The notes under the pieces: generated by a model | The model's database searches: none | Told to the model about the DNA's origin: nothing | Seen by the model: the letters and a program-made list of their open reading frames with translations, nothing else | Program-made: the position numbers and the translations under genes | Virus record (IMG/VR): IMGVR_UViG_3300030450_000982 | Span: 1 to 21,498 of that record | Length of the DNA: 21,498 bases | Reading direction: 5' to 3' (one strand) | From: a virus | Shown: piece after piece, positions 1 to 9,828 of the stretch | Layout of the letters: every line of letters starts with the position of its first letter | How positions within the stretch are numbered: the first letter of the stretch is position 1

Positions 1-493
1 GAACTAAGTGTGCAAGCAGTGCTTTGCCTCTGCTATTTAGTTGCATGTCTACTAATTTCTCTACACCATTACTAAACACCACATTAACATTGGTGTTGCC
101 TAGACTTCTTTGATTTACACAATACATCAGCAACTCGAACAGGTCTGATTGTTTAAAATATTCATGTTCTTCTTCGGTTAAGTCGTAATCTACACCTAGT
201 TCTGCCTCTATGTTTTTCTCTACGACGGAAAGTTCTTTAGCTAAATCTGGGTTGTTCCATTTTGTAGGTGCAGGCATATCTCCAGTTCTTTTTTCAGCTA
301 CATCGTGTGCCAATGCTTTTAGTATCGCTGTCTTACTGATGTCAGGTTTTAGCCAATTTAATATAACAGCAACACCCCAAGAATGACTGGCAACGCTCTG
401 TTCTCCAATAGTTAACATGGTGTGATAGCGTTTAACTTCACCTCCGTCTAAAACATTTAATACATTACTAACACTAGATTGATCTGTAATCAC
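1..493 (-). CDS. YfbR-like HD-domain 5'-deoxynucleotidase (3' end beyond window)
   Basis: I translated this reading frame by hand: it stays open from a GTG at 491-493 to the left edge, about 164 residues, so the C-terminus is missing. It carries the HD phosphohydrolase signature in the order seen in YfbR-type 5'-deoxynucleotidases: RYHTM, then SHSWGVAVILNWL, then ALAHDVAEKRTGDMPAPTKW; the His, the HD pair and the TGD-P-P-K segment are the family's metal and substrate residues. Such enzymes dephosphorylate dNMPs; a related phage enzyme, DatZ, removes dATP in 2-aminoadenine phages. The GTG is chosen because AGGAG at 500-504 lies 6 nt upstream; an internal ATG about 25 codons in would cut off part of the domain. 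The gene overlaps the preceding nuclease gene by 20 bp and is last of the visible operon. Inference: it removes a canonical dNMP so that a modified one is used. Substrate not readable from sequence. Confidence 0.82.
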   Translation of the reverse strand, partial: MITDQSSVSNVLNVLDGGEVKRYHTMLTIGEQSVASHSWGVAVILNWLKPDISKTAILKALAHDVAEKRTGDMPAPTKWNNPDLAKELSVVEKNIEAELGVDYDLTEEEHEYFKQSDLFELLMYCVNQRSLGNTNVNVVFSNGVEKLVDMQLNSRGKALLAHLV

Positions 494-1148
494 TACATAC
501 TCCTATTTTTCCAAAATGACACCACTTACAGTTTTGAACACTCGCTTTAGCAGGGTATTCTGTGGCTTCAGTTAATTTTAATGCTCTATTATGAAACACT
601 TCTTGTCTTTCTTTTATCTCGTCAACAGTATAAGAGTGTCTTGAGATTTTACCGTGGTCTAAATACCAAAGTTCAGCTTGTAAATTTGTAATACTTGGGT
701 CTCGATTATATGTTGCAGCTGCATACAACGCACATTGTTGTTCGTGTGATTCTTCGTTGCCCATAAATCTACCTGTTTTAAAATCTATAACCACTGTACG
801 ATCAGGTTTTTTAACATACGCATCAACTTTATAACGACACCAAGTGTTTTCTGTTTTCCAACCTGCTGGTTGCCAGTCTAAATCAAATGCCCAGTCCTCT
901 TCTACAGAAACACTACCTTCTATATAACCTTCCCTTAGTTGTTCAAAACCTTCTCTAAACTGTTCTAACGGTTTAGTCAAGTGACCTTCCCCTTTTATAT
1001 AAAGCTCAGCATCGTTGTGGATATTTGTACCACGAGTTGCAGCAGGATGCTGTGGTGTTGGTATTTTTTCTATACTCGCATAATAATATCGCTTTGGGCA
1101 CTGTTCAAAAACTGAAAGCCTACTGTATGACCAAGTATTACCTTGCAT
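474..1148 (-). CDS. PD-(D/E)XK exonuclease with Fe-S cysteines (RecB/Cas4-like)
   Basis: 224 residues. The nuclease core is visible: H44 (conserved N-terminal His), D109 in RYKVDAYV, then the D-x-K signature D122-F-K124 in VIDFKTGR, followed by HEQQCALYAAA at 135-145, the usual Q/Y motif. Four cysteines, C17 in FEQCPKRYYY plus C207, C210 and C218 at the C-terminus, have the spacing of the 4Fe-4S latch seen in AddB, Cas4 and RecB-like phage exonucleases. The product is probably a metal-dependent DNA 5'-3' exonuclease or end-processing nuclease acting in phage recombination or host DNA breakdown. It starts inside the end of the hydroxymethylase gene (11-bp overlap), so translation is likely coupled; no strong Shine-Dalgarno is seen. 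No cas1/cas2 lies nearby, so a CRISPR role is not supported. Confidence 0.82.
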   Translation of the reverse strand: MQGNTWSYSRLSVFEQCPKRYYYASIEKIPTPQHPAATRGTNIHNDAELYIKGEGHLTKPLEQFREGFEQLREGYIEGSVSVEEDWAFDLDWQPAGWKTENTWCRYKVDAYVKKPDRTVVIDFKTGRFMGNEESHEQQCALYAAATYNRDPSITNLQAELWYLDHGKISRHSYTVDEIKERQEVFHNRALKLTEATEYPAKASVQNCKWCHFGKIGVCSDYRSI

Positions 1149-2253
1149 TGTGACATGGTCCGATTTCTTCTTCTTCTATCTCTTCGTCACCGATTACAGC
1201 TTCTGTATCTTTTACTTCTTCTTTATTATCTAACCTTCTTTGTAGCCAGTCTATACAAGCTATCTTCCAATCTTCAGCTTTACAAAGTACATCTAATAAA
1301 TTAATTGCAGCTTGTGTTTCCCCATCTTCTCTATGTAATTGCCAAGCTCTTTCCATAGGAACAACAACATCTGCGAAAAATTGATTAGAGTAGGTTTGTA
1401 TAACATTATCTCTTGCATCGTAATCAAGCGAAATCCACTCAAAAAATTTATTCAAGTCTTCATCGAAATGTTCTGGTTCACTAACCATCGGATAAGGTTT
1501 TACATGTTTCTCGTATGGGTTAGATATCATAGGATATTTTAAAGAATAGTAATCTTGATCAGGCATAGCCTCGTCCATTTGTTTATACAGGCTAACATAC
1601 ACATGGAAACTATCACTAATTTGATTGTAAACACCAACTTCTACACCGATTCTACCAGCCATGTACTCTTGCAACATAGAAAAATGTACTGCGTTAGCAC
1701 CATATGCACCCCAGATCATATCGTTAGACCTACAACAAACAGTCATGTTTAGTTTGTTGTTTCTAATCTTAAAATATATGTGAGTATTACAAGGTGTGTC
1801 TAATGTATCTCTATCCAAATCATTATCACATTCCCACATAGCCACAACACATCTTCGGTCATCGGGTTTCTTTTTTAACCTGTTAACAATAACAGTTAGT
1901 TGATCTTGTCTATAAAAATTACGCCAACGATAACCGTAAGCACCATTAAAAGTCGCACCGTTATCGGTAAATGCAGACATACCTTTGTTGTACCTAACCA
2001 CAAAATCAACATCTTCTCTACCTTGTAACATCCACAAACCTTCCATAAAATGGAAAAAAGGATTCGCATCCCGTGGTTTCCAGAATAAAACCCTTTCGCA
2101 AGGTTTTTGATAGGTTGTAATAACAGGAGTTGTAAACTCTAAAGTCTTTCCTGCTCTACTGTCTTGTTCTTCTACGCAAGTGTCCCATCTAAATGCATCC
2201 ATACCTAACGCAAATGCTTCATGAACATTCCTGCAGTTTATTTCTTTTGCCAT
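1138..2253 (-). CDS. Thymidylate-synthase-fold nucleotide hydroxymethylase, probably dUMP hydroxymethylase
   Basis: 371 residues with a thymidylate synthase fold. Visible: EGLWMLQG at 71-78, GAYGYRWR at 104-111, catalytic Cys155 in DTPCNTHIYF, phosphate-binding CRSND at 174-178, WGAYGANAVHFSML at 181-194 and DSFHVY at 214-219. By-eye alignment with E. coli ThyA puts Asn187 at the pyrimidine-choosing Asn177, which favours dUMP; T4 dCMP hydroxymethylase has Asp there. The ThyA Trp80 position is Ser93, and the C-terminal closing segment ending in Val/Ile is replaced by an acidic tail (about 355-365, EEIEEEEIG). Both changes fit hydroxymethylation rather than methylation. An AAGGA-like ribosome site precedes the ATG. 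Its place beside hypermodification genes supports production of 5-hydroxymethyl-dUMP for incorporation into DNA. An ordinary thymidylate synthase or a dCMP enzyme remains possible. Confidence 0.85.
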   Translation of the reverse strand: MAKEINCRNVHEAFALGMDAFRWDTCVEEQDSRAGKTLEFTTPVITTYQKPCERVLFWKPRDANPFFHFMEGLWMLQGREDVDFVVRYNKGMSAFTDNGATFNGAYGYRWRNFYRQDQLTVIVNRLKKKPDDRRCVVAMWECDNDLDRDTLDTPCNTHIYFKIRNNKLNMTVCCRSNDMIWGAYGANAVHFSMLQEYMAGRIGVEVGVYNQISDSFHVYVSLYKQMDEAMPDQDYYSLKYPMISNPYEKHVKPYPMVSEPEHFDEDLNKFFEWISLDYDARDNVIQTYSNQFFADVVVPMERAWQLHREDGETQAAINLLDVLCKAEDWKIACIDWLQRRLDNKEEVKDTEAVIGDEEIEEEEIGPCHNAR

Positions 2254-2268
2254 AATTATAATCCTTGT

Positions 2269-3606
2269 TTATATTTCGTTTGTTAATTTAAAGAAATCAC
2301 TCATAATCTCTTTAGTTTTAGTTTTTACTTTGTCGCTAACTATTCCTGTCTCTAACTCACCGTAAAAACCTGTAGGATTGCCGTGAGCCAGAGAAATAAA
2401 TTGTAAACCAACTCTTTCTTTCTCAAAATGACTCAGTAAAATCCTATTGTTGTTGTGTATATCTTCTACTAAACCTTTGTCCATATTTATTGTTTCCTCA
2501 ATAATTCTTGCAAACTCTGCAGGTTCTGCATCGTGAGGCACCATCACATAGTTTTCATAAGGTCTAAAAACCTCACCGACACCTTCTTCGTTGGTAGAAA
2601 TACCATAGTTTCTAGCAATAGGTATCGTGCCTTCTATGATTCCGTCAACAACTACACGGTTAAAATGGTCACCAACTTTTGCATAAGCAACCGACCACGA
2701 AGGGTCAATCACACATTTAACAGTTCTTAACTTTTCTCGCACCTGTGCCTCGGATAGATAACCAAACCATTGCATTCCGTGCTCTAAGGCTACATCCCAT
2801 ATCTTTCTACCGTGATGTAAGTAGCTGATCTGCGGATCTTTTTCTGGTGTAACAAAGTATTGTGGTTTACATTTATCTTTTGATGTCATGTAGTTGTGCT
2901 CAATACCACCACCAGCCATGTATTTTACTGTGTTAGGTAAAAGGTGAGGAATTGCTCTAACTAAATCGTCTACATGTTTCCAGCCTTTAAAGGTTTGCAT
3001 AGATATAAACCCATCTTGTCTACTGTCCCAGCTAGGTTTTGCTTCTACACCACGCAAATCTTGCGGATTAAATATTAATGCACGAGGTACATCTAACACA
3101 GCTGCACCATGATAGGCACAAGGGTGTACACAAGCTAAACCATCTAAATGATGTGCTATTTGACTAATCCACGGATAACTTTTTTCCATGTTACCATCGT
3201 GAATAACAGCTACTTGTTTAGTCCTATCAGGTAAGTCATAGAGGTGTAACCAGTCTGTGTTACCTTCGTTATCTCGTTGTTTTGTAGGAACAGGTATCTG
3301 CCAAATAATCAAATCATACTCAGCTACATACTGTTTCCATCTACGCAGATTCCAATCACCTTTATAGGCAAATCTACTTACTTTAGGAAACAACCAACCT
3401 TTACCCTGATGTACAGGTATATCGGAGGCTCTCATCTCGTAGCCTTCTCTACTTTTAGTTGTCTTACATTTTACACTTGATCGCCAGACTAACTCTATAA
3501 AATTAACATCATGCCCTTGTAATTTTAAACCAGAGATTAGATTCTCGTTGTGGTTTATAATCCCTCCAGGACTATTGATCCCGTACATTGTAACTAATAT
3601 TTTCAT
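2269..3606 (-). CDS. GT-B-fold glycosyltransferase (GT4-like)
   Basis: 445 residues. The N-terminus MKILVTMYGINSPGGIINHN is the first Rossmann strand and glycine-rich loop of GT-B enzymes, followed by a helix (ENLISGLKLQGHDV). The second half starts near residue 199 with FISMQTFKGWKHVDDLVRAI, the usual start of the nucleotide-sugar-binding domain, and VVDGIIEGTIPIARN at 319-333 occupies the place of the acidic donor-sugar motif of GT4-type enzymes. No signal peptide or membrane segment is seen, so it acts in the cytoplasm. The ATG overlaps the upstream stop as ATGA. Phage glycosyltransferases either decorate hydroxymethylated DNA bases or modify surface/virion glycans; being next to the hydroxymethylase favours DNA (inference). 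Donor sugar and linkage are not readable. Confidence 0.78.
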   Translation of the reverse strand: MKILVTMYGINSPGGIINHNENLISGLKLQGHDVNFIELVWRSSVKCKTTKSREGYEMRASDIPVHQGKGWLFPKVSRFAYKGDWNLRRWKQYVAEYDLIIWQIPVPTKQRDNEGNTDWLHLYDLPDRTKQVAVIHDGNMEKSYPWISQIAHHLDGLACVHPCAYHGAAVLDVPRALIFNPQDLRGVEAKPSWDSRQDGFISMQTFKGWKHVDDLVRAIPHLLPNTVKYMAGGGIEHNYMTSKDKCKPQYFVTPEKDPQISYLHHGRKIWDVALEHGMQWFGYLSEAQVREKLRTVKCVIDPSWSVAYAKVGDHFNRVVVDGIIEGTIPIARNYGISTNEEGVGEVFRPYENYVMVPHDAEPAEFARIIEETINMDKGLVEDIHNNNRILLSHFEKERVGLQFISLAHGNPTGFYGELETGIVSDKVKTKTKEIMSDFFKLTNEI

Positions 3607-3914
3607 ATATCTTCCCCCAATGGATGTTGTGTCACATGTTGTTCTACCAGAATTAAATACCGACGCAAATCTTGTATGTCGTCGATAATACCTTCTGCCC
3701 TATTGTCTTGTTTGTATGCTTCAAATATATCGTAATCAAACTTTTTAACTTGGTTCTCCAACCTGTCCCATTTACGAGCCAGCATCATAAAAGCACCAAC
3801 ACCACCACGGTTTTTCCAAGATTCACCGTATGATTTTTCTGCTTTTTCTAAACAGTCAACATCGTCTTGTGCTATAGTTCTCATCATTTCGAATTTAGTA
3901 AAAGGTTGATTCAT
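3603..3914 (-). CDS. Small DUF1599/Nmad1-like protein
   Basis: 103 residues from the ATG at 3912-3914, which overlaps the upstream stop as ATGA and has AGGAG ten bases upstream. A longer start at 3941 is possible but would overlap the methyltransferase gene by 31 bp. The core is SYGESWKNRGGVGAFMMLAR at 28-47, then KWDRLENQ, an acidic stretch, and DDIQDLRRYLILVEQHV at 78-94. The KxYGxSW start and the helical Asp/Glu-rich second half resemble DUF1599, also called nucleotide modification associated domain 1, a MazG-like all-alpha group. The match is from memory of the pattern, so it is tentative. Enclosed between the methyltransferase and glycosyltransferase genes, it probably works with them, perhaps as a nucleotide-pool enzyme or an accessory subunit. 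Confidence 0.6.
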   Translation of the reverse strand: MNQPFTKFEMMRTIAQDDVDCLEKAEKSYGESWKNRGGVGAFMMLARKWDRLENQVKKFDYDIFEAYKQDNRAEGIIDDIQDLRRYLILVEQHVTQHPLGEDI

Positions 3915-4555
3915 CTTGTGTATGCTCCTATGGTGTGCCAATTTTTACCTGTGTCTCTAAATTCACGCATGGGTTTAAAACCTTGTTCAAGCATGCTATC
4001 GTGCACACCTCTACCTTTTGCTCGCCATGTAGAATCATATTGAAAATGTATCTCCATCACTAGTTTTTCAACATACTCTGGAAACACATAAGGCATAAAA
4101 CCATATTCTGCACCCTCTACATCTATTTTTATTTTATTAGGTTTAGTGTCCTGTATTATTTTATCAAAATTTAAAGCAGGAACTGTTACACAGTCTCTAC
4201 CATTAACTTCTCTTGTCATATGCAACCCTTTGTTTTTCTTAGAGTTAATGTACAAAAACACAGACTCACTGTCATCACCCACAACAGCACATTGTGTGTT
4301 AGTAGAATTAGGACTGTTCATAAGCAACAAAGCAAAATTGTCAGAATCTGGCTCATAAGCATATATCTTACTCGCACCCTGTTCTTCAGCATACAGACTA
4401 AATGCTCCAATATTTGCACCTACATCTAAAACTGTGTCACCCTCTTGAATATCCAACATATTGTAGGACGGACGAATTTCTTTAAACACATACTCGTCCA
4501 ATGTTCCAGGTCTTGCCCAACCTTTAAATTTTTCTAAATAAACTAACTCTTCCAT
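3911..4555 (-). CDS. FkbM-family SAM-dependent methyltransferase
   Basis: 214 residues with a class I methyltransferase fold of FkbM type. Motif I is VLDVGANIGAFSLYA at 43-57, the acidic ribose-binding end of strand 2 is YAYEPDSDNF at 65-74, and IKIDVEGAEYGFM at 142-154 is the highly characteristic FkbM IDVEG-E motif. FkbM enzymes are usually O-methyltransferases acting on sugars or small molecules. A GGAG site lies 9 nt before the ATG, and the gene overlaps the preceding gene by 13 bp and the following one by 4 bp, so they are co-translated. Inference: it methylates a sugar or other group added to the modified base. A role in methylating a virion or cell-surface glycan is the main alternative. 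Confidence 0.87.
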   Translation of the reverse strand: MEELVYLEKFKGWARPGTLDEYVFKEIRPSYNMLDIQEGDTVLDVGANIGAFSLYAEEQGASKIYAYEPDSDNFALLLMNSPNSTNTQCAVVGDDSESVFLYINSKKNKGLHMTREVNGRDCVTVPALNFDKIIQDTKPNKIKIDVEGAEYGFMPYVFPEYVEKLVMEIHFQYDSTWRAKGRGVHDSMLEQGFKPMREFRDTGKNWHTIGAYTR

Positions 4556-5370
4556 TTGTACAAACTCCTTGGTTTTCCTTCGCCTAATCTTACACGCTCA
4601 TATTTATCGAACTCGCAAAGGGAATGCTCGATATCACGCATTTCTAAATCTGGTACATGTACACCTATTAAATCAGGAGAGGCATGTAATAAATCTTTCA
4701 TCTCTTCTACACATTGTTTTATCTTGATTGTTTTTTCTAACGGTCTACCATGTATTCTGTTAAGACCTCGTCTTGCTCCTGGACCAGGATTTGCCCAAGA
4801 CATAATATCTTCGGCTTGGTCACCTAACCAAGTATGACGCCAATCTGTAACAACTTCGTAAGCCATAAATGGACCCATGTAGGGATAGGGTAGTAAAACA
4901 TTCCATTGGTCTTCTAACGAAAACCTTGCTTCATGTATATCGTTCATAAACTTATTGCCATCGTTAGCTATTTGATCTATTGCCCAACAGATACCTTTTA
5001 ATTTATCCATACCGTTAGGACTTTTTATAATGTATGCACCTGTAATCCATTGTGGTTCATCTTTTAAAACTTCGTAGCAAACTTCACTATCCCATAATCT
5101 ATGTAGATCATGCTCAACAAGCAGTTTACCAGTGCTTATTAGATTAAACCATCTAAAAATAATAGTAGCCATAACTACATCAGGATCGTCACGCATAGGT
5201 TCTCGTATGTTTTCTCTAAACCAAACAGTCGTTGCGTCATTTTCCCTAAACACATTAGTAAATTTATATTTTTGTAGTATAGGATCTGTAGTCCAAGGAT
5301 ATTCTTTACCACGCAATCTGCGTAAATAAATCATATGCCTTTCGTCTATAAATTCAAAAAACTTTTCCAT
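4543..5370 (-). CDS. Thymine-hypermodification superfamily protein (5-hmdU DNA kinase helical domain / amino acid:DNA transferase-like)
   Basis: 275 residues. FFEFIDERHMIYLRR at 4-18, PWTTDPIL at 25-32, FTNVFRENDATTVW at 37-50, GPFMAYEVVTDWRHT at 166-180 and NPGPGARRGLNRIHGR at 194-209 match what I know of the superfamily first called alpha-glutamyl/putrescinyl thymine pyrophosphorylase. It includes the helical domain of 5-hmdU DNA kinases and the amino acid:DNA transferases that replace a pyrophosphate on hydroxymethyluracil in DNA, and is thought related to base-flipping helical glycosylases. No Walker A motif is present, so this is a stand-alone helical unit and cannot itself be the kinase. 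A ribosome site AAGGA lies before the ATG; the gene ends inside the FkbM start. Which clade it belongs to, and so whether it transfers an amino acid, cannot be settled by eye. Confidence 0.75.
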   Translation of the reverse strand: MEKFFEFIDERHMIYLRRLRGKEYPWTTDPILQKYKFTNVFRENDATTVWFRENIREPMRDDPDVVMATIIFRWFNLISTGKLLVEHDLHRLWDSEVCYEVLKDEPQWITGAYIIKSPNGMDKLKGICWAIDQIANDGNKFMNDIHEARFSLEDQWNVLLPYPYMGPFMAYEVVTDWRHTWLGDQAEDIMSWANPGPGARRGLNRIHGRPLEKTIKIKQCVEEMKDLLHASPDLIGVHVPDLEMRDIEHSLCEFDKYERVRLGEGKPRSLYKWKS

Positions 5371-5372
5371 AA

Positions 5373-5996
5373 TTAATAATCCTTTTTAGCTTTTCTGTGT
5401 AGATATGCCCTGTGACTTTGATAAGGCATAATAAAAGCTTGATGACTAGTATGCCATTTTTCTGGTTGGTCATAACTTTTTCTAATAATTGCAGGTAGAT
5501 CGCTTTGATACACAGTCCCGTCAGCATAAGTTCCTGGTGGTAATTCTTCTATAATACAGTTATATAGATAGCGTTCATCTTCGGTAGTAAACGGTTCATC
5601 AGGCAAAGAGTCTAAATACATAGCTACATCTTCAGGTAAATGTACTTCATCGTATGAACAAGTGGTTCGATAATCTACGACATTTCTATGAAGAGGTATT
5701 CTTCTTTCTTTTATACTTGTTTTAGTAAAAGGATTTTTATTTTGGTTAAGTTGTTGTTCTGTTTGACAATCATAAGAGCAGTACACATTAAGGGGACTGT
5801 CTTTAGGTAAGAACGATTCACCACATTGTACACAAAACTTAGAACCATCGTTAGGAATATATGGTTTAACTTCTACAACATTAAGGAAAACTTGGTGACC
5901 TTTTTCTAAGGCTTCATCTAGCTTTTTATGAAGTTCTTCTTTCTTGTTCATACACTGATGATAACCTAAGTCATTAACTTTGTAAAGGACTTTCAT
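5373..5996 (-). CDS. Unknown protein with a four-cysteine zinc cluster
   Basis: 207 residues. C55-V-Q-C58 followed by Y-C73-S-Y-D-C77 gives C-x2-C-x14-C-x3-C, the pattern of a small treble-clef or MYM-like zinc finger (CxxCGxxF...YCSxxC). An amphipathic, probably coiled helix MNKKEELHKKLDEALEKG lies at 16-33; the C-terminal half has no motif I recognise and ends in a basic HRKAKKDY. The ATG overlaps the helicase stop as ATGA, and only 2 nt separate its stop from the next gene. Placed between the helicase and the hypermodification protein, it could be a DNA-binding accessory factor, but no enzymatic residues are evident. The gene is real on length and coupling; function unknown. Confidence 0.7.
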   Translation of the reverse strand: MKVLYKVNDLGYHQCMNKKEELHKKLDEALEKGHQVFLNVVEVKPYIPNDGSKFCVQCGESFLPKDSPLNVYCSYDCQTEQQLNQNKNPFTKTSIKERRIPLHRNVVDYRTTCSYDEVHLPEDVAMYLDSLPDEPFTTEDERYLYNCIIEELPPGTYADGTVYQSDLPAIIRKSYDQPEKWHTSHQAFIMPYQSHRAYLHRKAKKDY

Positions 5997-7501
5997 ATAA
6001 TTGGTTTAAAAAACTTAGATGTAGAGGGCTGTACGATATGTAGATTTTTACGAGTCCGTGTAACAGCAACATAGAATGCTCTGTTTTCTCCGTCTGGTCT
6101 AGAGTAAAGTTCGTTCCATGTTTTGACCGACATATCTGTAAGTACAACAACATTGTCTGACTCACCACCTTTTGCTGCGTGTATAGTTGACAGTCTAATT
6201 CTAGGTTTAGATATCTTTTCCCCTCTTCTTAAACAGGCTATTAGGTATTCTCTTTGTTGTGCACCTACCCTGTCGAATGCTTCATGCCATATAGCATCAG
6301 TCAAGAGTCCATGTTTTTCTTTTAATTCGTGTATGTCGAAAAACTCATCTTCCGAAACTCCAGGTAATTTTTTCTTACCTCTAGCTACACCTTTACCTAC
6401 TGACATAAAGTAGTAGATATCTCTAACTTTAGCACCAGACACTTTTCTGTCTTTTCGTAACAGTTCCCAATTACCTATTGCATCTAACAGTTCTTGTTTA
6501 ACAGACATAACATTATTTTTGATGAAAAGATATCCAATTTGTTGCAAAAATTTTTCGACCTTATTTAGTAAATAACCGTTTCTAGCAAGTACCAACCATT
6601 CTCCTTCAGAATAGTCTAGGTGTTCGTGTGAAGTGTAAACGAAAACATCACCATCAACATCTCTAGGGTGCCAGAATTTTTCTCTTCTGTTTTGTTTAGG
6701 AATACGGTTAAGAATGTTTTGTGCTACCTTGTGCACCTTTTTTGGAATCCGATAAGATTGTTCTAACACAGTTACATCACCCTTTAGTTCTACGAAAGTG
6801 TTGACATCTGCACCAGCCCATTGATAGATAGCTTGATCATCGTCACCAGCAATATGTACATGTTTAACATTAGTTGCTAGTTTCTTTATACATTCCCACT
6901 GTATTTTAGAAAGATCTTGTGCTTCGTCTACTATTAACACATCTAGATTAGGTGTGGTTTTCTCTTTTATAAACAGATACAACATGTCAGTGTAATCTTT
7001 TAGAAATCGTTCTTCTTTAAACTTTTCTAAACTTACACAAAACCAATTAACATGATTCCAAGGTATGTCTACATTTGCTTGTTCCCAATGTTCTCTTACA
7101 GATACTTTTTTATTTCTGGCAATGTTTTCTATAAATAACATTTGGTCACCCTTAGACATGCCAAACACTGCACCTTCTTCTTGTTTCAATTGCCCATTTA
7201 ATGGTTCACCCATTAATTTACTGAACTCTCGATAATGGCTTCTTGCCATAATATCTGCAGTTTTAAGACCAAGCCAGTGATAACAGAGGGAATGTATAGT
7301 TCTAAAATATACAAGTTCTTTGGGATCTAATTCAAAGCGTAGACTTGCTCTTTCAAGAGCCTCGTTTGCAGCTTTCTTAGTAAACGCTAAATAACCGATC
7401 CTGTGGGGTGCCACACCGTCCTTGAGGTAATCTTCTGTAAGACTTAATAACTTTGTTGTCTTACCAGTGCCAGGTGGTCCAAGGATGATGTTCCATGTCA
7501 C
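5993..7501 (-). CDS. UvrD/Rep-like superfamily 1 DNA helicase
   Basis: 502 residues with all SF1A motifs: Walker A GPPGTGKT at 8-15, motif Ia AFTKKAANEA at 39-48, TIHSL at 68-72, Walker B VDEAQDLS at 191-198, motif III GDDDQAIYQWAGA at 219-231, QSYR at 248-251, motif V STIHAAKGGE at 438-447 and motif VI FYVAVTRTR at 476-484. It is clearly shorter than UvrD or PcrA (about 700 residues), so the 1B/2B subdomains are reduced. The start is GTG at 7499-7501, overlapping the upstream TGA as GTGA; no in-frame ATG exists before Walker A. It probably unwinds DNA 3'-5' in phage replication or recombination, together with the primase and SSB-like protein encoded further upstream. Confidence 0.93.
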   Translation of the reverse strand: MTWNIILGPPGTGKTTKLLSLTEDYLKDGVAPHRIGYLAFTKKAANEALERASLRFELDPKELVYFRTIHSLCYHWLGLKTADIMARSHYREFSKLMGEPLNGQLKQEEGAVFGMSKGDQMLFIENIARNKKVSVREHWEQANVDIPWNHVNWFCVSLEKFKEERFLKDYTDMLYLFIKEKTTPNLDVLIVDEAQDLSKIQWECIKKLATNVKHVHIAGDDDQAIYQWAGADVNTFVELKGDVTVLEQSYRIPKKVHKVAQNILNRIPKQNRREKFWHPRDVDGDVFVYTSHEHLDYSEGEWLVLARNGYLLNKVEKFLQQIGYLFIKNNVMSVKQELLDAIGNWELLRKDRKVSGAKVRDIYYFMSVGKGVARGKKKLPGVSEDEFFDIHELKEKHGLLTDAIWHEAFDRVGAQQREYLIACLRRGEKISKPRIRLSTIHAAKGGESDNVVVLTDMSVKTWNELYSRPDGENRAFYVAVTRTRKNLHIVQPSTSKFFKPII

Positions 7502-8313: not shown

Positions 8314-9828
8314 TTAAAATGGTTCTTGTCTCATGTTAGGTATCTCTATTTCAGCGTCTTCCGATTGGAATGCAGGGATCGCCCATGCGTTTACACCTCT
8401 ACCTTTAATATTAAAAAACACATGTTCAGCACCCATATCTTTTAGTCTAGCTGCGATCTGGTTAGACTTCATTTCCATAAACCTATGTCTTTGTAGATAG
8501 TCTAATAAATCACGAATTCTAAAATGCGTTTTGTTTTCGTTAGTCCAAGGTTTGCCTAAAAGTATCTCTTCTCGAGTAGAGGCTTGAGCAATATCTGTAC
8601 AAAAAGATTCTAACAGTTCGTTAAACTGTCCATCGATAGATGCGTCTTGGCTTACATCTATTATCTCTAAACCATTTTCTAACAGCTGTTGTACTAAACC
8701 TTGCCAAGCAACTTCTTTCATTTTAGGTGGCATCACATTTAAAGTTTCCATACATACACGCTGAAATCTTATTTGGTTTTGTAGTTGTTCAGTTGTTAGT
8801 TCTAATCGTTTGTCATTTACCGACATAAACCAGAGAGGTGGTTGTGTATTTAGTTTAGCTAAACTAGAGAATATTGGAGCATCGTGACCTGCACCAACTC
8901 CGAACTTACAGGTTCTACACTTAGTTGGATTACAGTAAGACTTAATCGGTTCGTCACTACACTTATAGTTATATTCTTTCTTTTTATGTTGTTGTATTAA
9001 ATTAGACACTTCACTAGCAGGCAACGGTGGTTGAAAATACTTTCTGTTATAGTCTTCTAGTTTAGTTTCCCAAGCATCAGGGTGTGCTTTTTGTAGATAA
9101 ACAGCAACATTAAAGAGTCCATTGTTTCTAGTTCCTTCAGGAAACCCTTGTTTTAATAGTATTTTTAGACAAGGTGGACCAAACTCTAAGTCATCCACTA
9201 CAGCTGCAATCTCTATTTTAAATAAATCTTCAGCGTTAGTTAGTTGTCTTTCTAAAGCAAAAACTAGGAAGTCGTCTATACCTAATGCCTCAGCTTTTTC
9301 AGATAGACCATAACGAGTAGAATCTTCACCACCGAAGTATGGCATGTTTAACCAACTACCTATATCACCTCTATCAGCTAACACTTGTCGTTGTTTAGGG
9401 AATATCTCTAGTCCACCGTACCCTAACCCTGCTGCTATTTCACGCAACTTATCTTGCATATCTCCTGCTTCAACAGGCTCGGAGACGAATAACAATATAT
9501 GGGCACCACCACTTTTACTTCTACAAACAACTAATGGGAGTTTCTGTTTTTCTATTTTATCGATTAGCTCAGCCAAGTCTAAAGGATAAACATCTACATC
9601 TATACAACCCCAATGACACATATTGTCATCATTAATAGGAATAACTCCTAGACCATATTCACCTTGTAAATGTTTTTCCCAGAAAGCAATAGTTGGACCA
9701 GAGGTTTTAACGGTGACAGCTTTACCTTGTTTCTTACCGTCGTTTCTATCTTGTTTAACCTCAAAAAATCCATGTGCCCTTTCCGATCCTTTAAATAGCC
9801 GAGAAAAATTCTCTGCTGTTTTTCTCAT
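8314..9828 (-). CDS. Archaeo-eukaryotic-type primase (TOTE-like primase/prim-pol)
   Basis: 504 residues. The catalytic hhhDhD motif is GCIDVDVYP with D77 and D79; the second motif is SKSGGAHILLF (104-114) with His110; the third region has EIFPKQ at 141-146 and GSWLNMPYF at 157-165, the pairing seen in primases of TOTE conflict systems and many phages. LEFGPPCLKILLKQGFPEGT at about 214-233 with RNNGLFNVAVYLQK resembles the helical C-terminal domain (PriCT-like) of such enzymes, and C290, C299, C304 and C307 form a zinc site. It should make primers, and perhaps extend them, at the phage fork. The ATG has AAGGA just upstream. No replicative DNA polymerase is visible here; it lies elsewhere or comes from the host. 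Confidence 0.82.
   Translation of the reverse strand: MRKTAENFSRLFKGSERAHGFFEVKQDRNDGKKQGKAVTVKTSGPTIAFWEKHLQGEYGLGVIPINDDNMCHWGCIDVDVYPLDLAELIDKIEKQKLPLVVCRSKSGGAHILLFVSEPVEAGDMQDKLREIAAGLGYGGLEIFPKQRQVLADRGDIGSWLNMPYFGGEDSTRYGLSEKAEALGIDDFLVFALERQLTNAEDLFKIEIAAVVDDLEFGPPCLKILLKQGFPEGTRNNGLFNVAVYLQKAHPDAWETKLEDYNRKYFQPPLPASEVSNLIQQHKKKEYNYKCSDEPIKSYCNPTKCRTCKFGVGAGHDAPIFSSLAKLNTQPPLWFMSVNDKRLELTTEQLQNQIRFQRVCMETLNVMPPKMKEVAWQGLVQQLLENGLEIIDVSQDASIDGQFNELLESFCTDIAQASTREEILLGKPWTNENKTHFRIRDLLDYLQRHRFMEMKSNQIAARLKDMGAEHVFFNIKGRGVNAWAIPAFQSEDAEIEIPNMRQEPF

Follow-up and report, generated by a model that had tools for sequence, protein, structure and literature searches.

How might a phage decorate a hydroxymethylated thymine in its DNA when no kinase for that purpose can be detected in its lineage? 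This question is raised by a gene unit at the left end of a linear, 32,929-base virus record (IMG/VR record IMGVR_UViG_3300030450_000982, called G000), the first 21.5 kb of which (21,498 nucleotides) constitute the window analysed here. The unit includes a thymidylate-synthase superfamily protein (termed here the synthase), a GT-B glycosyltransferase (GT), an FkbM-family methyltransferase and a 275-residue protein, termed HEL, that by its PF18723 profile is a helical partner of the 5-hydroxymethyldeoxyuridine (5-hmdU) DNA kinase. The analysis favours, with a probability of roughly 0.6, a pathway by which this unit makes glycosylated, probably O-methylated, 5-hmdU within phage DNA and does so without a kinase. 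An earlier interpretation, made without database searches (the sequence-only reading), had proposed DNA hypermodification with a methylated, sugar-bearing hydroxymethyluracil as a possible end product; hypermodification from 5-hmdU is well supported, and that compound is the best-supported predicted product.

The pathway would begin with the synthase, which would convert dUMP to 5-hydroxymethyl-dUMP while an HD-domain phosphatase drains competing deoxynucleotide pools; 5-hmdU would then replace thymidine in DNA through the phage PolA; and, once in DNA, it would be recognised or exposed by HEL, which resembles DNA glycosylases and partners the 5-hmdU kinase in YuA-type phages. The GT-B enzyme would put a sugar from a nucleotide sugar on the 5-CH2OH group, at the point where relatives use the kinase, and FkbM would O-methylate that sugar. 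The weakest links in this scheme are the role of HEL, the identity of the sugar and the methyl acceptor. If the scheme is correct, then marine phages related to those of SAR11 glycosylate thymine while bypassing the kinase route by which the studied systems are defined, and a likely substrate can be assigned to an uncharacterised GT-B family; as of 2019, glucosylated 5-hmdU was stated to be unreported in phage genomes (PMC6449724). Such modified DNA could evade restriction and could also hamper library preparation, so that these phages might be under-sampled.

The synthase is probably a dUMP hydroxymethylase, as the sequence-only reading had proposed. In an alignment of 14 members against an E. 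coli ThyA reference sequence (supplied by the author), the Cys nucleophile C146 and residues N177, R166, H207 and Y209 (E. coli numbering) are invariant, and W80 and H147 are substituted in all 14. In E. coli ThyA, N177 is responsible for uracil recognition, and Trp80 of thymidylate synthase controls the hydride-transfer step. Hydroxymethylation of dUMP is suggested because the uracil-type Asn is kept, the hydride-transfer Trp is lost and the window's protein, which matches phrog_5131, scores far under the NCBIfam thymidylate-synthase cut-offs. In MilA, a CMP hydroxymethylase of solved structure, the Trp is likewise absent, but an Asp occupies the base-recognition position. Among cultured phages, the closest synthases occur in those of the PaMx11/YuA type (42-45% identity), a group that includes M6, whose DNA is 5-hmdU-derived (PMC6449724). 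A dUTPase occurs in the relative G007 (L094 14441-14884; PF00692, 1.2e-25), as expected if thymidine is replaced via dUMP chemistry.

These M6/YuA/PaMx11-type Pseudomonas phages also resemble the window in having a HEL (38-46% identical) and an HD phosphatase downstream of the synthase, next to PolA (the same 5'-deoxynucleotidase family follows the synthase in PaMx11 and, as gp18, in YuA). They differ in that they carry a P-loop 5-hmdU kinase beside HEL and an amino acid:DNA transferase (ADDT), plus pyridoxal phosphate (PLP), radical S-adenosylmethionine (SAM) or FAD enzymes, whereas the window lacks these and has GT-B and FkbM between HEL and the synthase. (The biochemistry of the kinase and of ADDT is taken here from Pfam names, PDB titles, PMC6449724 and general knowledge.) Neither PF18748 (the kinase) nor PF18724 (ADDT) was found in G000 or in most marine records, including those of 61-62 kb, by Pfam searches that were positive for YuA and Sonora; thus the absence of a P-loop kinase noted earlier for the window extends to the remainder of the 32.9-kb record. 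Because G000 is a linear piece that breaks off on the left within the HD gene, which closes the unit, a kinase missing from the window would by itself be weak proof, and longer relatives are needed: in G003 (61 kb) and G007 (62 kb), both scanned whole, the terminase and UvrD are the sole proteins with a Walker A motif, and a kinase hidden Markov model (HMM) built for this analysis found nothing in either, or in G000, while recovering known kinases at 1e-54 or better. This HMM, with its controls, was adopted because a search with the PaMx11 gp49 kinase, which matched nothing anywhere, had no positive control; its sensitivity applies to known kinase types only, since its controls are its training sequences. 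Judged by these searches of G000, G003 and G007, each a record of unproven completeness, the lack of a kinase is a lineage trait and not an artefact of the window.

What stands in the place of the kinase varies from phage to phage. Each of 57 non-redundant HEL loci (at least 9 kb each) has exactly one partner type: GT-B (23 loci), TAGT (12), the kinase (9), a PF13489 SAM methyltransferase (8), or radical SAM with a family termed CL10 (5), which may itself be a distant form of GT-B (hhalign E 0.004, probability 8%). Kinase and GT-B never occur together at these loci, and record-wide searches likewise show GT-B and TAGT without overlap. The partners have been exchanged, because GT-B-linked HELs do not form a single clade on the HEL tree (approximately unbiased test, p=2.3e-5), on which TAGT requires at least three changes and the kinase at least four; 40 HEL residues are invariant over kinase-bearing and kinase-free loci, so that HEL is strongly conserved even where the kinase is missing. 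If the proposed pathway holds, this one-partner-per-locus rule could forecast phage thymine modification from sequence. A bolder proposal, put forward tentatively, is that HEL acts as a general presenter of 5-hmdU in DNA to interchangeable decorators (kinase, GT-B, TAGT, methyltransferase or radical-SAM set), one per phage; ocean phages would then harbour a modular thymine hypermodification family, of which the methylated glycosyl-5-hmdU predicted here would be an undescribed product.

HEL had been placed by the sequence-only reading within a thymine-hypermodification superfamily, and HMM searches keep it there, within the family of helical partners found in 5-hmdU-derived systems: in YuA, PaMx11 and Sonora it lies downstream of the P-loop kinase, and its AlphaFold2 model (predicted local distance difference test, pLDDT, 95) matches in BFVD both phiW-14 and the 637-residue 5-hmdU DNA kinase of SP10, which has a HEL-like domain inside. 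Since BFVD entries named aG/PT-PPlase1 match the model, that name is taken to denote the HEL family. The closest PDB fold is the PaMx11 gp46 5-phosphomethyldeoxyuridine (5-PmdU) glycinyltransferase (Z 11.3), followed by DUF2419 queuine-salvage enzymes and helix-hairpin-helix DNA glycosylases, where for a helical protein such Z values may reflect a shared arrangement only and do not imply activity; the HEL profile has no match at E<=10 among PDB sequences. This nearest solved fold, along with a Cys-containing C-terminal motif that, judged by eye, is common to HEL and ADDT, speaks for a phosphorylated route, in which an unrecognised or host kinase acts on 5-hmdU, HEL is the transferase, and GT and FkbM modify what HEL has installed or have other targets; moreover, the thymine derivative of SP-15 carries both a sugar and a sugar-phosphate (PMC5977210). 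Such a route is unlikely, however, inasmuch as neither PF18748 nor ADDT was found in the lineage, the 61- and 62-kb relatives have no spare Walker A protein, kinase and GT-B do not meet at any HEL locus, and a comparison of the HEL and ADDT profiles gives no significant alignment (hhalign probability 2%), so that it lends no support to sequence homology between them despite the fold match.

Certain HEL loci contain further enzymes. Those with CL10 and a radical SAM/SPASM enzyme beside HEL and the synthase (L018 10894-12932, L026, L027, L028 and L034, three of which also have a cytidylyltransferase-cupin protein), CL10 being a putative GT, are predicted to specify a different, probably more complex thymine modification. 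In much of the TAGT subgroup a pyrimidine-dimer DNA glycosylase-like protein (L058 9468-9971 and 18 related open reading frames, ORFs; PF03013, 1.7e-10) immediately precedes HEL, and in one marine subgroup an AlkB-like 2-oxoglutarate-Fe(II) oxygenase (PF13532, 2e-19; L078 13243-13860, L060, L071, L076 and L079) lies near HEL, TAGT and the synthase.

The GT-B assignment, weak by Pfam, is clear by predicted structure: the AlphaFold2 model (pLDDT 94.6) has a GT-B fold like that of T4 alpha-glucosyltransferase (AGT), whose complex with hmU-DNA it matches with Z 26.1 over 333 residues, at 12% identity. T4 AGT likewise belongs to a phage DNA hydroxymethyl-pyrimidine pathway, but acts on 5-hydroxymethylcytosine DNA, whereas the predicted acceptor of the window's GT is 5-hmU, in a HEL-bearing system. 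A GT profile search recovered 68 loci, 38 of them non-redundant; within 3 kb of the GT lie the synthase (25 loci), HEL (24) and a TET/JBP dioxygenase (8), with at least one of these present in 33/38, so that the family is linked to enzymes producing hydroxymethyl pyrimidines. (TET/JBP identity was confirmed by PF12851 in four GT loci, at E values down to 7.6e-28.) As for the remaining five, L120 and L135 start at a contig end, L140 lies amid structural genes, and L124 and L163 are beside a radical SAM enzyme. As in the TET/JBP systems with a glycosyltransferase (base J; phage TAGT), a hydroxymethyl pyrimidine would be made and then glycosylated, and relatives of the window's GT do adjoin TET/JBP; unlike in those systems, the hydroxymethyl group would be made on the nucleotide by the synthase, and the GT is of the GT-B type, with no match to PF20691 (TAGT) in G000, a family present in other HEL phages. 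Thymine is favoured over 5-methylcytosine as the TET substrate, because a C5-cytosine methyltransferase occurs in none of the 12 records (which may be incomplete) behind the non-HEL, mostly TET-type GT loci. Against the PDB, the GT profile matches glycogen synthase/GT4 enzymes; a single-sequence search yielded fibroblast growth factor matches only, which were discarded as spurious. Among cultured phages, neither this GT nor its L111 relative has a match.

Two observations concern the GT family more generally. In L124 (8001-10309) and L163 (8001-10401), which are large phage contigs, a radical SAM/SPASM enzyme directly follows a relative of the window's GT, while TET, HEL and synthase are all missing from the vicinity; this neighbourhood is a third context of the family. 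A cytidylyltransferase-like small protein in the relative G003 (24738-25142, that is, L091 4738-5142; PF01467, 2.4e-13) could supply the GT with a nucleotide-activated donor.

A more ordinary explanation is that the synthase yields dTMP or plain 5-hmdU, while the GT and FkbM act on host or virion glycans and are neighbours of the synthase by chance or through early-gene grouping. Surface glycans are common targets of GT4 and FkbM enzymes, and the position of FkbM is variable. Phage GT clusters have also been interpreted as surface-glycan genes (PMC7824862). The explanation is nonetheless improbable in view of three patterns: the GT family adjoins HEL/synthase or TET/JBP in most of its loci, across distant phages; the gene order HEL-GT-synthase-HD is conserved; and TAGT, kinase and GT-B substitute for each other.

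For the last step of the proposed glycosylation pathway, the evidence is that FkbM (as the sequence-only reading had identified it) is present in 15 of the 23 GT-B loci and in 1 of the 34 other HEL loci (Fisher p=3e-7). In an independent arrangement (L111/L165, one and the same record), HEL, GT and synthase adjoin one another, with FkbM placed upstream of UvrD, which fits a sugar O-methyltransferase working after the GT.

Several findings weigh against this pathway. After correction for the tree, the association of FkbM with GT-B is not significant and, resting on just three independent pairs, is only suggestive; the close relative L098 is without FkbM; and the slot in other close phages holds an FkbM of only 33-35% identity, the slot itself being, on sequence comparison, exchanged among close phages. 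T4 AGT ties for best match to the GT with the ordinary GT4 enzymes PimA, HepE and TarM, and GT4 folds are common. That each HEL locus has at least one partner is partly circular, since HEL neighbourhoods were themselves used to define several of the partner families (the non-overlap of partners is unaffected). Finally, GT2, TAGT and the window-type GT were not detected in a large kinase-free group with a methyltransferase, and hence HEL has no obligatory GT. Since a related group has only the PF13489 SAM methyltransferase beside HEL and the synthase, the hydroxymethyl group could conceivably be methylated directly in this family, but that FkbM thus yields O-methylated 5-hydroxymethyluracil, with the GT making a precursor or acting elsewhere, is very unlikely, given that FkbM tracks GT-B and not HEL or the synthase alone, and that the PF13489 enzyme belongs to another family.

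As transcribed from the minus strand, the genes (Table 1) run UvrD, zinc-ribbon protein, HEL, FkbM, small protein, GT-B, synthase, PD-(D/E)XK exonuclease and HD 5'-deoxynucleotidase. They lie close together on a single strand, and ATGA stop/start overlaps join FkbM to the small protein and the small protein to GT, so that a single translationally coupled unit is likely, in keeping with the contiguous unit described earlier. The gene families listed then, the 5'-deoxynucleotidase among them, are borne out save one: the supposedly DUF1599-like (DUF1599/Nmad1) small protein matches no Pfam family above chance, and neither does any of its 26 relatives examined. That list also omitted the exonuclease and the zinc-ribbon protein. 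In the majority of groups, the small-protein family (65 ORFs in related loci) is found between the synthase and PolA. The exonuclease family (29 ORFs) adjoins the synthase and probably serves replication or recombination; the UvrD family comprises 67 ORFs; and relatives of the zinc-ribbon protein are detectable only in L011 and L013, two of the nearest phages. A primase conserved beside the module (window 8314-9828, minus strand) has an archaeo-eukaryotic primase domain of the TOTE type (PF22548, 2.9e-10).

Table 1. Genes of the predicted hypermodification unit and its upstream neighbour, in window coordinates.
Feature	Coordinates	Strand	Evidence
HD-domain 5'-deoxynucleotidase (YfbR-like), truncated by left record end	2..493	-	PF12917 E=1.5e-15
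PD-(D/E)XK (Cas4/RecB-like) exonuclease	474..1148	-	PF12705 4e-19; phrog_69 exonuclease 1.3e-23
Thymidylate-synthase superfamily, predicted dUMP hydroxymethylase	1138..2253	-	PF00303 3.6e-23; phrog_5131 2.7e-117
GT-B glycosyltransferase, predicted DNA 5-hmU glycosyltransferase	2269..3606	-	Pfam 1.2e-5 (just under cut-off); predicted structure clear
Small conserved protein, ~103 aa, ATG at 3914	3603..3914	-	Family conservation; no Pfam family
FkbM-family methyltransferase, predicted sugar O-methyltransferase	3911..4555	-	PF05050 1.6e-13; NCBIfam TIGR01444 8e-20
HEL, 275 aa, PF18723 HMUDK_hel (aG/PT-PPlase clade 1), predicted 5-hmdU-DNA recognition factor	4543..5370	-	PF18723 1.3e-47
Fast-evolving zinc-ribbon protein, member of the predicted hypermodification unit	5373..5996	-	Pfam: nothing above cut-off
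UvrD-type helicase of the replication module, conserved neighbour upstream of the unit	5993..7501	-	PF00580 2.6e-31

Judged by the terminase, the window phage and the HTVC023P-type pelagiphages are relatives of the same lineage: the terminase of G007, a close and long relative, is 52-57% identical to theirs (and 58% to that of phage DSL-LC04). As in the window, synthase and aG/PT-PPlase1 are paired near PolA in these pelagiphages, some of which add a 5'-deoxynucleotidase and a glucosyltransferase (PMC9599517). The gene set is therefore less unusual than the sequence-only reading had claimed, in that the synthase/HEL pair was already published for relatives, while its kinase-free character with GT and FkbM does set it apart; the parts are of known kinds, and what is new is their combination and the pattern of partner exchange. 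A nucleotide search of cultured phages with the first 10 kb of the window gave no match, no tRNA or Rfam element was found in the window, and promoter and terminator scans of it gave no meaningful excess over shuffles. A curli/type VIII secretion set, which has been reported for HTVC023P-type pelagiphages, occurs in G007 as well (48023-52876, that is, L096 8023-12876), with CsgG (PF03783, 1.6e-47), CsgF (PF10614, 9.5e-17), FecR and a CHASE2-adenylate cyclase. G000 encodes at its far end (L002 16334-17899) a highly acidic protein of 521 residues with dense E/F-rich stretches and no Pfam match.

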